Source of the DNA: Deltaproteobacteria bacterium GWA2_38_16
GTDB taxonomy: Bacteria; Bdellovibrionota; JACOXK01; 2-02-FULL-40-11
Assembly (NCBI GenBank): GCA_001797335.1
Contig: MGPE01000011.1
Coordinates: 13,154 to 77,153 of the forward strand
Direction of reading: 5' to 3'
Length of the DNA stretch: 64,000 nt
The position numbers and the translations under genes are program-made. The notes below the pieces were generated by a model. The model worked only from the letters and a program-made list of their open reading frames with translations, was not told the DNA's origin and did no database searches. This document shows, piece by piece, positions 42,122 through 44,621 of this stretch (position 1 is its first letter; each line of letters opens with the position of its first letter).

Positions 42122-43240
42122 CTACTTTAGCACTACTCTAGGCACTCGATATGATACGGCGCATAAAATTTCCCAAGGAATAGACTGAATACGTTCTGCC
42201 ATGTCTTCTACTGTTATTTGATTCTTCCCTTGTTTCCCAAGAATAACTACTTCATCTCCTATCCCAGCTTCAGGAATATGTGTCACTTCGACCATACAAA
42301 CATCCATGCATACTACTCCAACGATAGAAGCTTTTTTCCCCCGAATCAGTACCTCACCTTTATTTGAAAAATTTCTCATCAATCCATCGGCATACCCCAT
42401 GGGAATGGTTGCAACCCATCCATCTTGCGTAAAGCGATGCGTATATCCATAGCTAATATAATCTCCCTTTTTCACTTTCTTTAACTGAATCACTTTACTC
42501 TTTAACGTCATCACAGGCTTTAATTCCAATTTTTCTCGAAGTGCTTTGGTGGGATAGGCTCCATAAAGCGTAATTCCAGGGCGCACCAAATTTTCATTCA
42601 CCCCAAAATCATTTAAAATAGCTCCGCTATTGGCCAAGTGTGTATAGGGAAATGAAATGGGACTTATTTTTTTTAACTGACGAAATAGTTGAATTTGAGC
42701 TTCATTAAAATGACTATGACGCTCTCCATTGGCAAAATGAGTCATCATTCCTTGAAACTGTATATTTTTAAATTTATTAATTGATTTAAATAACTTATGA
42801 GCATTTTCTAAAGTAAATCCTAATCTATTCATTCCTGTATCTACTTTGATGTGCACCGTTCCTTTTTTATTTTTTTTCTTACAAAAAGCATTATACGCAT
42901 TTAAAAAATCCAGGTGATAAAATACAGGGGTTAAGTGATAGGCCCAAAGCTCTGAAAACGTTTTAGGATCTTGTCCACCCGTCAAAATAACAATGGGAGT
43001 TTTAATGCCATTTTCTCTTAAGCGAATCCCCTCTTCCAAATACGCCACCGCTAAAAAAGGTACTTTTAATTTTTCTAATCGCGCAGCAATAGCACTATCA
43101 CCATGGCCATAGGCATTGGCTTTCACCACCGCCATGATGGATACTTTAGGCCCAATTTTTTGTTGCAATTGTTTTACATTAAATTCCAAAGCAGATAGGT
43201 CAATCTCTGCAACAGTCGGACGAAGAAGATGTTGGGACAT
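42122..43240 (-). CDS. alr: Alanine racemase
   Basis: 372 residues. The PLP lysine is in MAVVKANAYGHGD; MNRLGF and MTHFANGE line the barrel. The C-terminal domain holds the catalytic Tyr in YISYGYTHRF, followed by ATIPMGYADGLMR and GVVCMDVCMVEVT. It makes D-Ala for peptidoglycan. It lies 35 bases upstream of purH on the same strand and may be the first gene of that operon. Confidence 0.95.
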   Translation of the reverse strand: MSQHLLRPTVAEIDLSALEFNVKQLQQKIGPKVSIMAVVKANAYGHGDSAIAARLEKLKVPFLAVAYLEEGIRLRENGIKTPIVILTGGQDPKTFSELWAYHLTPVFYHLDFLNAYNAFCKKKNKKGTVHIKVDTGMNRLGFTLENAHKLFKSINKFKNIQFQGMMTHFANGERHSHFNEAQIQLFRQLKKISPISFPYTHLANSGAILNDFGVNENLVRPGITLYGAYPTKALREKLELKPVMTLKSKVIQLKKVKKGDYISYGYTHRFTQDGWVATIPMGYADGLMRNFSNKGEVLIRGKKASIVGVVCMDVCMVEVTHIPEAGIGDEVVILGKQGKNQITVEDMAERIQSIPWEILCAVSYRVPRVVLK

Positions 43241-43297: not shown

Positions 43298-43307
43298 TAT
43301 TTTTTAG

Positions 43308-43380
43308 GCCGACGTAGCTCAGCTGGTAGAGCAGCTCATTCGTAATGAGCAGGTCACCGGTTCGATTCCGGTCGTCGGCT
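43308..43380 (+). tRNA. tRNA-Thr (anticodon CGT)
   Basis: 73 bases fold into a cloverleaf: acceptor GCCGACG/CGTCGGC with discriminator T, D-stem GCTC/GAGC, anticodon stem GCTCA/TGAGC around TTCGTAA (anticodon CGT, reading ACG), and T-arm ACCGG-TTCGATT-CCGGT. CCA is not encoded. The 3' end begins a 12-bp sequence repeated 585 bases downstream. Confidence 0.96.
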
Positions 43381-43389
43381 TACGATTTT
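43378..43389. repeat. Direct repeat at tRNA 3' end (left copy)
   Basis: GCTTACGATTTT, comprising the last three bases of tRNA-Thr and the next nine. The identical sequence recurs at 43963-43974. Together they bracket the DUF2442/DUF4160 pair, like attachment-site copies. Confidence 0.55.
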
Positions 43390-43662
43390 CTATGAGGCTT
43401 TCTTTTGAGGCATACTAAATCTTTCGGGATAAATTAAAAAAACGGCCGATAAATCTTCATCTAAATCAGGCCAATGAATCCCAATGCCACTCCCTAAAAT
43501 TTCAAAATTTAAAAGCTGTGCTTTAGTTGCATTTTCAAGCTTTGGAGAAATAGATTTATGCCGTTTTATAATTTTCCCAGATGTTGTTTTTATATGTAAA
43601 TAACCACCTATAATCCAAAATTTTTCTAATCTTATTTTATCTTCAAGTCTTAAAGAACTCAT
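43390..43662 (-). CDS. DUF2442 family protein
   Basis: 90 residues. LHIKTTSGKIIKRHKSISPKL and the C-terminal GIGIHWPDLDEDLSAVFLI match DUF2442, where the W-P-D-L-D-E-D-L motif is diagnostic. A near-perfect Shine-Dalgarno (AAGGAGGT, 43666-43673 on the minus strand) precedes ATG. It overlaps the DUF4160 gene by 20 bases. DUF2442 and DUF4160 commonly occur as a pair and behave in databases like a toxin-antitoxin-type cassette; which is which is not settled. Confidence 0.8.
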   Translation of the reverse strand: MSSLRLEDKIRLEKFWIIGGYLHIKTTSGKIIKRHKSISPKLENATKAQLLNFEILGSGIGIHWPDLDEDLSAVFLIYPERFSMPQKKAS

Positions 43663-43885
43663 ACCACCTCCTTAAAAAGATCTCTCTATTTTCCAAAACA
43701 ATGGCTTCAATTTTTCTTAATTCATGAAGTTTAAAACCACTATTATGAGCCAAACGAACTTTTGGTGCGAGCCAGAATTTACAAAGATGGGAACCTTTTT
43801 GAACATGAACATGTGGCTTTTCATTCCCCTCATTCGAGAAGAAGAAAAATCTGGCTCCATCAATAATAACTACAGTTGGACTCAC
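43643..43885 (-). CDS. DUF4160 family protein
   Basis: 80 residues. The start is GTG, chosen because AGGAGG lies six bases upstream. MSPTVVIIDGARFFFFSNEGN followed by KPHVHVQKGSHLCKFWL and LRKIEAIVLENREIFLRRWYEFF (in separate runs) is the DUF4160 pattern, with the conserved EKPHVHV. First gene of the two-gene cassette downstream of tRNA-Thr. Confidence 0.8.
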   Translation of the reverse strand: MSPTVVIIDGARFFFFSNEGNEKPHVHVQKGSHLCKFWLAPKVRLAHNSGFKLHELRKIEAIVLENREIFLRRWYEFFKT

Positions 43886-43962
43886 GCTATGCCTCCTAAA
43901 ACATATATAATATATATCAAATAATATAATTTGTCATCGGTTCGTATAACCTAGCCTCACCC

Positions 43963-43974
43963 GCTTACGATTTT
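43963..43974. repeat. Direct repeat, right copy
   Basis: GCTTACGATTTT, identical to 43378-43389. Just upstream, CGGTTCG also recurs, in the position of the tRNA T-loop, so this may be a decayed tRNA 3' remnant. The repeat contains the stop codon of the membrane-protein gene that follows. Confidence 0.5.
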
Positions 43975-44621
43975 AATCGTTTAAAGTAGACGATGAGGCA
44001 CAGGGCAAAATAGGAAAGTAAAATGGGGCAGAATAAAAGCTGAGTGATGACACGCCCTAGGAAAAACATTGCCAAAAGATACAGCACTACAAAAAATAAG
44101 AAAAAATAAAAAAGAGCCCAGGAGTTTTCTCCAACCACTTTTTCACTGCGAGCTAACACAACATCGGAAGTTAAATTTTCTTGATACTCTAACATAGAAA
44201 TAGGCCACACCATAAAATAGTGGAAGAATGTTTTAATACGAAAAAAAGCTTTTGCGGTTGTCACAAGATAGAGTTTAAGTCTCCCCCCTTCTTCTTGAAG
44301 TACATCTATACTCCATAAGGGAGTTTTCTTTTCTTCCCGTCTAGAAATATAAAATAAAACAAAAAATTCTTGAAAAACCACAAAGACAACCAGTAAGAAA
44401 AAATAAAACACATACAGAAATGGCAAGATCATCCACAAAATGACGGGGCGATCCCCCAATAACAAAGTCGTAGGACCAAAAATTAATACTCCTACTAAAA
44501 GACTTAAAATTCCAAGTCCCAAAGAAAAAACAAAGCTAATGAGCACTAAAATTCCCCCAAAGGGAGTGATGAGCTCTGTAAGACCTTCTTTTAGAATATT
44601 AAGGGGAAAGAGCTTATGCAT
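43965..44621 (-). CDS. Multi-pass membrane protein, unknown
   Basis: 218 residues with about five hydrophobic segments (GILVLISFVFSLGLGILSLL, ILPFLYVFYFFLLVVFVVF, LFYFFLFFVVLYLLAMFFLG and others) and one soluble loop (ISRREEKKTPLWSIDVLQEEGG, in two runs). No diagnostic motif; a general resemblance to EI24-like inner-membrane proteins is not strong enough to name it. Diverges from nadB with an 84-base gap. Confidence 0.68.
   Translation of the reverse strand: MHKLFPLNILKEGLTELITPFGGILVLISFVFSLGLGILSLLVGVLIFGPTTLLLGDRPVILWMILPFLYVFYFFLLVVFVVFQEFFVLFYISRREEKKTPLWSIDVLQEEGGRLKLYLVTTAKAFFRIKTFFHYFMVWPISMLEYQENLTSDVVLARSEKVVGENSWALFYFFLFFVVLYLLAMFFLGRVITQLLFCPILLSYFALCLIVYFKRLKS

Follow-up and report, generated by a model that had tools for sequence, protein, structure and literature searches.

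A unit of 585 bp, the contents of which are a single toxin-antitoxin-type gene pair, separates the 3' end of tRNA-Thr(CGT) from a gene for a 218-aa protein in the genome of Deltaproteobacteria bacterium GWA2_38_16 (2.0 Mb, 19 contigs). It is located on contig 11, a part of which constitutes the window, i.e. the whole stretch of 64,000 nucleotides that was analysed and to which all coordinates refer. The locus and its borders comprise the following features:

42122..43240, minus strand: flanking alanine racemase gene (alr), syntenic with tRNA-Thr in the relatives G003 and G005
43308..43380, plus strand: tRNA-Thr(CGT), the presumed attachment gene (ARAGORN 43307-43381; exact ends from the sequence, with the acceptor end at 43379 and the discriminator base at 43380 by eye)
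43353..43389, plus strand: proximal repeat copy, composed of the T-arm, the acceptor 3' strand and 9 nt beyond the tRNA, GTCACCGGTTCG...GCTTACGATTTT (gapped alignment, 12-mer)
43390..43662, minus strand: DUF2442 protein, 90 aa, antitoxin-like, corresponding to DhiA and the second PEM gene (Pfam PF10387, E 9.1e-13)
43643..43885, minus strand: DUF4160 protein, 80 aa, toxin-like, corresponding to DhiT and the first PEM gene (Pfam PF13711, E 4.4e-18)
43666..43674, minus strand: Shine-Dalgarno sequence TAAGGAGGT of DUF2442
43892..43897, minus strand: Shine-Dalgarno sequence AGGAGG of DUF4160
43909..43937, minus strand: promoter-like site of the DUF4160/DUF2442 pair (ATGACA, 17 nt, TATATT), which abuts the distal repeat (consensus scan)
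43933..43974, plus strand: distal repeat copy, interpreted as the decayed 3' end of a tRNA-Thr (GTCATCGGTTCG, 18 nt, GCTTACGATTTT)
43965..44621, minus strand: flanking 218-aa membrane-like protein, the stop codon of which lies inside the distal repeat; syntenic in G005

The next gene beyond the 218-aa protein is nadB. At the opposite border the cassette starts directly after the tRNA gene, which is intact; both genes of the pair point at the tRNA, and the stop codon of DUF2442 is only 9 bp away from it. The GC content of the cassette amounts to 33.0% vs 38.4% for the window. The promoter-like site constitutes weak evidence by itself, since the consensus scan yielded 4 sites where 2.9 were expected.

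A preliminary description, made from the letters alone, had placed only two overlapping genes of a toxin-antitoxin-like pair between the repeats, with very strong Shine-Dalgarno sequences unlike most neighbours. All of this holds: the genes overlap by 20 bp, Pfam assigns their products to DUF2442 and DUF4160, and the 9-nt Shine-Dalgarno sequence of DUF2442 is the longest among 39 ORFs, 22 of which have none. The DUF4160 protein carries the conserved residues F15, H25, H27, K36, W38 and W74. Two described systems share the order seen in the window, with DUF4160 first and an overlapping DUF2442 second. According to excerpts of the respective reports, dhiTA of Dickeya dadantii is a toxin-antitoxin pair for which growth inhibition, neutralisation and toxin co-repression are described (PMC8198452), while in the Persistence Enhancing Module (PEM) of Thermus plasmids deletion of the second gene blocked transformation and plasmids were stabilised by the pair (PMC12724237). 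PEM was without effect in E. coli. Of the two systems, dhiTA is a chromosomal operon and PEM are plasmid modules; tRNA association is described for neither in these excerpts, whereas the pair in the window is tRNA-adjacent. With respect to DhiT/DhiA, the genes agree in family membership and in being adjacent and overlapping with the toxin gene first. By analogy, DUF4160 and DUF2442 are predicted to act as toxin and antitoxin, respectively.

The AlphaFold model of the DUF4160 protein is confident (pLDDT 92.7), but Foldseek returned no match to it at E <= 0.001 and VIA-align gave only middling Z-scores, of at most 5.9, to unrelated folds. Because the model is without a convincing fold match, no toxin mechanism is put forward. 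Likewise, PADLOC and NCBIfam gave no match for either protein of the pair. The closest relatives of the pair (L162 and L210; 64-65% and 47-53% at the amino acid level) are not beside a tRNA, hence tRNA sites are not obligatory for it. At four further loci (L021, L029, L033 and L227), the second protein next to DUF4160 is BrnA/CopG-like and takes the place of DUF2442, so that DUF4160 partners appear to be exchanged. Two conceivable sources of the pair were considered and rejected. As regards phage cargo, a single Erwinia phage match reached 38%, a single-protein scan of viral contigs was empty, and a profile scan of the same kind of contigs recovered 19 relatives (31-53%), none of which lies beside a tRNA. 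As regards a plasmid origin, the best match, on a Legionella plasmid, amounts to 52.6%, which argues against a recent plasmid donor.

The claim that the 12-mer GCTTACGATTTT at the end of the tRNA recurs exactly 585 bp further on is correct (43378-43389 and 43963-43974), and the 218-aa gene has its stop codon within the second copy, a detail absent from the earlier account. Throughout the 2.0 Mb, the 12-mer occurs five times, as opposed to zero times for a control in which the pattern was read backwards; the other three copies lie elsewhere in the genome and none of them abuts a tRNA end. The additional recurrence of CGGTTCG upstream of the second copy, taken for a decayed T-loop, stands as to its presence (43358 and 43938) but fails as to its register, the distance being 580 rather than 585 bp. 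The actual T-arm match is GTCAYCGGTTCG (11/12): upstream of the far copy stands GTCATCGGTTCG, which agrees with the T-arm stretch of tRNA-Thr(CGT) at 11 of 12 positions, is 5 nt out of register, and is identical to tRNA-Thr of the relative G005. The putative displaced tRNA 3' fragment at the far boundary would be decayed rather than clean, combining 12 exact bp with this shifted T-arm part.

The 12-mer lies inside the tRNA with only 3 nt and is short, hence the repeat alone is insufficient for claiming an island. Nevertheless, the longest exact repeat spanning the tRNA-Thr(CGT) 3' end within 1.5 kb has a p-value of 0.003, so that about 0.1 such matches would be expected by chance over the 43 tRNAs tested. 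Stronger 3'-end repeats are present at only two tRNAs of the genome, namely tRNA-Gly(CCC) with 21 bp at +143 and tRNA-Ser(TGA) with 22 bp at +169. When the tRNA 3' half was aligned with gaps to the 100 bp of the distal flank, a Markov simulation gave p of about 0.0002, a value that is indicative only because the gap scoring was picked after the finding had been seen; none of the window's 2547 other segments of this length scored as high. Statistically, a reading of the distal repeat as a decayed rather than clean tRNA 3' end, beyond chance, is thus supported by the sequence comparison.

No integrase is encoded inside the 585-bp cassette, where the two ORFs are the only ones between the repeats. 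Genome-wide, a search for tyrosine-type recombinases (PF00589) retrieved two genes and no dedicated tyrosine integrase; one of the two is XerD, which exceeds its NCBIfam cut-off, and the other encodes an XerC-like protein that falls just short of its own. The plain options for placing the cassette are a trans-acting integrase that has since vanished or the deletion of an integrase; insertion mediated by Xer is speculation. An integron cassette was tried as a further candidate and discarded: both tyrosine recombinases scored far below the TIGR02249 cut-off (157.6 and 120.7 bits vs 265), and visual inspection revealed no hairpin site ahead of the distal repeat.

A search for the same type of cassette at other tRNAs, proposed in the preliminary description, revealed that toxin-antitoxin pairs cluster on the 3' side of tRNAs across the phylum. 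DUF4160 is present in 126 of 324 genomes, and 120 of its loci were sampled with flanks of up to 7 kb. Closest to DUF4160, at up to 250 bp, tRNAs number 13.4 per 100 kb; their density declines to 8.7, 4.6 and 3.8 in the next bins, while between 2 and 7 kb only three tRNAs were encountered in about 805 kb (0.4 per 100 kb). Within 500 bp of the 120 loci, 13 tRNAs were seen vs about 2.5 expected from the average of 43 tRNAs per 2.0 Mb in the window's genome; four of the 13 belong to one tRNA-Met lineage, and counting it once leaves 10 (Poisson p about 3e-4). For 20 of 23 tRNAs within 2 kb, the toxin is on the 3' side. Regarding other toxins, BrnT has a tRNA within 1.5 kb in 11 of 30 loci, invariably with the toxin on the 3' side (11/11), and ParE in 4 of 30 loci with mixed sides. 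Sidedness alone is no proof of integration, since 3' spacers are generally longer than 5' spacers (medians of 259 vs 78 bp in the window's genome). A RelE/RelB-like pair (L332, G000:C3:3500-13000) was also seen flush with the 3' end of tRNA-Leu(TAA), pointing at the tRNA like the pair in the window.

At 35 loci the pair lies 3' of a tRNA, and their tRNA-end repeats were scored against swapped controls. Five loci exceeded every control, and most tRNA-adjacent pairs are without a significant repeat. The closest counterpart is L129, which displays tRNA, DUF2442 and DUF4160 in the order and orientation of the window, both genes pointing at the tRNA, and which is closed at +1062 by an 81-bp copy of the tRNA-Met 3' end plus terminator, again without an integrase. 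Further repeats comprise 14 bp of the tRNA end beyond the toxin-antitoxin genes at L227, 22 bp about 3.4 kb past the pair at L171, with an IS-like insert in between, and a 19-bp copy of the tRNA 3' end between tRNA-Ser(CGA) and BrnT at L266 (G278:C31). An integrase was encountered in the sampled flank 3' of the tRNA at only 2 of the 35 loci: L166 bears a truncated one beside the pair, while at L212 the pair next to tRNA-Ser is followed by a small HTH gene and by a tyrosine integrase, which is intact and precedes a 13-bp tRNA repeat. The latter arrangement plausibly represents an autonomous parent form of such cassettes. The region 3' of tRNA-Ser(CGA) at L266 has an array-like arrangement, in which a 145-bp structured block occurs twice with 99% identity, a small gene lies between the blocks, the second block ends in the 19-bp tRNA copy, and BrnTA follows.

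A short insert in the window's genome is found beside serS (L337, G000:C14:9500-18500), where tRNA-Ser(TGA) is followed by 169 bp, at the end of which its terminal 22 bp are repeated. G001, a member of another genus, has the exact empty site with one copy (L352), the only clean empty site encountered. Subsequently, both genomes carry a DUF433/DUF5615 pair, for which DNA identity is 94.3% vs 70.1% for serS, while G003 and G002 are devoid of this pair at tRNA-Ser(TGA). Within the family, though at a tRNA other than tRNA-Thr, the empty site and these identities demonstrate short inserts with tRNA-end duplication as well as pairs crossing genera at tRNA 3' ends.

Structured noncoding pieces of about 145-165 bp were observed at the 3' ends of tRNA-Arg(TCG) (L316), tRNA-Val(CAC) (L318) and tRNA-Ser(TGA) (L337). 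The Arg and Val pieces are 79% identical and the Ser piece has the same layout by eye; all feature strong hairpins, the 3' strand of which resembles the copied tRNA end. Rfam matched only tRNAs at the tRNA loci and none of these three pieces. A second family consists of imperfect hairpins of about 120 nt, CTCAACGTAC..GTACGCCT, at or within about 100 bp of the 3' ends of tRNA-Gly(CCC) (L317), tRNA-Val(TAC) (L311) and tRNA-Cys(GCA) (L313), with similar-looking hairpins in L227 and L266; the tRNA-Gly(CCC) copy is closed by the 21-bp repeat at +143.

Several of these observations would also suit a pair that had reached an intergenic safe haven through homologous or illegitimate recombination, with no site-specific recombinase involved, given that the 3' spacer tolerates insertions while the 5' side carries the tRNA promoter; the 12-bp repeat would then be a chance match or a microhomology scar. 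The short 12-mer, barely inside the tRNA, the tRNA-distant nearest relatives L162 and L210, the longer 3' spacers and the many tRNA-adjacent pairs without a clear repeat are all consistent with this explanation. On the other hand, almost all of the repeats at comparable loci, the longest being 81 bp, run across the tRNA 3' end, the 169-bp insert in the same genome combines a 22-bp tRNA duplication with an exact empty site, and integrases, intact or truncated, occur at two loci. Hence, we consider an entry of this kind unlikely, albeit not negligible.

The relatives compared for the tRNA-Thr locus all fall outside the window's genus. The only syntenic one, G005, features purH, alr, tRNA-Thr, the 218-aa gene and nadB in the order of the window, but its scaffold is interrupted by exactly 100 N directly at the tRNA-Thr(CGT) 3' end (L058 9645-9744), the site of the cassette. 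In G003, which represents another genus of the same family, purH, alr and tRNA-Thr are followed by BrnT/BrnA in the orientation of the window's pair, and no tRNA repeat was found there. An alr homologue and tRNA-Thr(CGT) were not found in G001, G002 and G004; in G006, which belongs to the same class, the surroundings of tRNA-Thr(CGT) differ, with a glutaredoxin-like gene 18 bp on and no toxin-antitoxin pair. A scan of genome contigs in which the alanine racemase served as the query returned only a distant Chryseobacterium MAG. An empty site joining 43389 to 43975 was seen in none of these relatives. The DUF4160/DUF2442 cassette is not a fixed neighbour of tRNA-Thr(CGT).

Different pairs at one tRNA in different genera could result from replacement by homologous exchange, in which the conserved tRNA gene serves as one anchor and the neighbouring modules are swapped. 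BrnTA in G003 and DUF4160/DUF2442 in the window, at the same tRNA and in the same orientation, would conform to this process, as would the DUF433/DUF5615 pair exchanged between genera at tRNA-Ser; however, exchange by itself does not account for the tRNA end being present again at the distal border, and we deem it improbable. Least credible is vertical inheritance of an old resident pair beside tRNA-Thr with a coincidental repeat, for although all relatives compared belong to other genera and the gap of G005 falls at this very point, G003 of the same family has BrnT/BrnA instead, DUF4160 is confined to 126 of the 324 genomes of the phylum, and the repeat exceeds chance.

The segment from 43381 to about 43965 is thus probably a horizontally acquired, non-autonomous cassette at a tRNA 3' end. 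The original suggestion of a minimal, integrase-less tRNA island is supported in part, by the decayed repeat and mainly by the class of loci rather than by an empty site at tRNA-Thr; a small tRNA-associated island without an integrase of its own is the best-supported reading. In favour of acquisition stand the statistically supported distal repeat, the order and long repeat of L129, the repeats at L227, L171 and L266, the integrases at L212 and L166, the crowding of DUF4160 and BrnT on the 3' side of tRNAs, BrnT/BrnA of G003 at the same tRNA-Thr, the tRNA-Ser(TGA) insert with its empty site in G001, and the restriction of the genome's tyrosine recombinases to XerD and the XerC-like protein. 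Against it stand the gap of G005 where the empty site would lie, the brevity and shifted T-arm of the repeat, the pairs L162 and L210 away from tRNAs, BrnTA of G003 without a tRNA repeat, and the small share of loci above controls (5/35).

In the acquired-cassette reading, an element with a dhiTA-type toxin (DUF4160) and antitoxin (DUF2442) would have integrated at the 3' end of tRNA-Thr(CGT), so that the tRNA stayed intact at one border while the tRNA 3' end that it displaced, decayed by now, came to lie at the opposite border. The joined site prior to insertion would read tRNA...GTCGTCGGCTTACGATTTT followed directly by AATCGTTTAAAG. The element may never have had an integrase, with a passing phage or island providing one in trans; alternatively, an integrase could have been lost through internal deletion. 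The pair would be retained because its loss is penalised. Site-specific integration, activity of the pair as toxin-antitoxin and addiction-based retention are what we infer from this picture. A broader and rather doubtful extension would make tRNA 3' ends a general landing platform for micro-cassettes in the lineage, with the enzyme acting in trans and duplication of the tRNA end. The cargo would comprise toxin-antitoxin pairs of 0.6-1.2 kb as well as structured noncoding pieces of about 140-170 bp, and the enzyme might be housekeeping XerC/XerD or a transient phage integrase, amounting to an integron-like economy without an integron.

Cis-mobilizable elements (CIMEs) typically derive from ICEs and span kilobases. 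The cassette shares with them the absence of recombination and transfer genes and may resemble them in its attachment-like flanking repeats, the distal site being decayed; it differs in its size of 585 bp and in that no parent element was identified. The tRNA-gene islands mapped by Islander pair an intact tRNA, as seen here, with a displaced tRNA 3' fragment at the opposite border, for which the decayed distal repeat is a candidate in the window; they are attributed to a tyrosine integrase, which the unit in the window, 585 bp as a whole, does not contain (PMC4383910). Tycheposons measure 4-200 kb, carry their own tyrosine recombinase and border on a tRNA gene; the last trait is shared by the cassette, which with two genes and no recombinase falls outside their definition (PMC10872708). 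The class of cassettes is further reminiscent of the additive flexible genomic islands of Ca. Methylopumilus, which range from 330 bp to 42 kb, lie beside a tRNA and possess direct repeats of its last 20 bp; those, however, occupy one tRNA-Lys site and contain mostly unknown genes, whereas many tRNAs and toxin-antitoxin pairs are involved here (PMC10872708). In kind, the cassette is probably an integrase-less tRNA-associated insertion with a known toxin-antitoxin pair in an extremely compact form, unusual for its small size and its recurrence at many tRNAs across the phylum.

Genes for tRNAs are the classic docking sites of large islands that bring along their own integrase. If confirmed, the cassette would indicate how far an integrative element can shrink and what stays last, and toxin-antitoxin pairs would obtain a chromosomal niche that is predictable from the list of tRNAs. 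Moreover, it raises the question of which recombinase places such pairs, and the phylum-wide pattern merits a proper survey.
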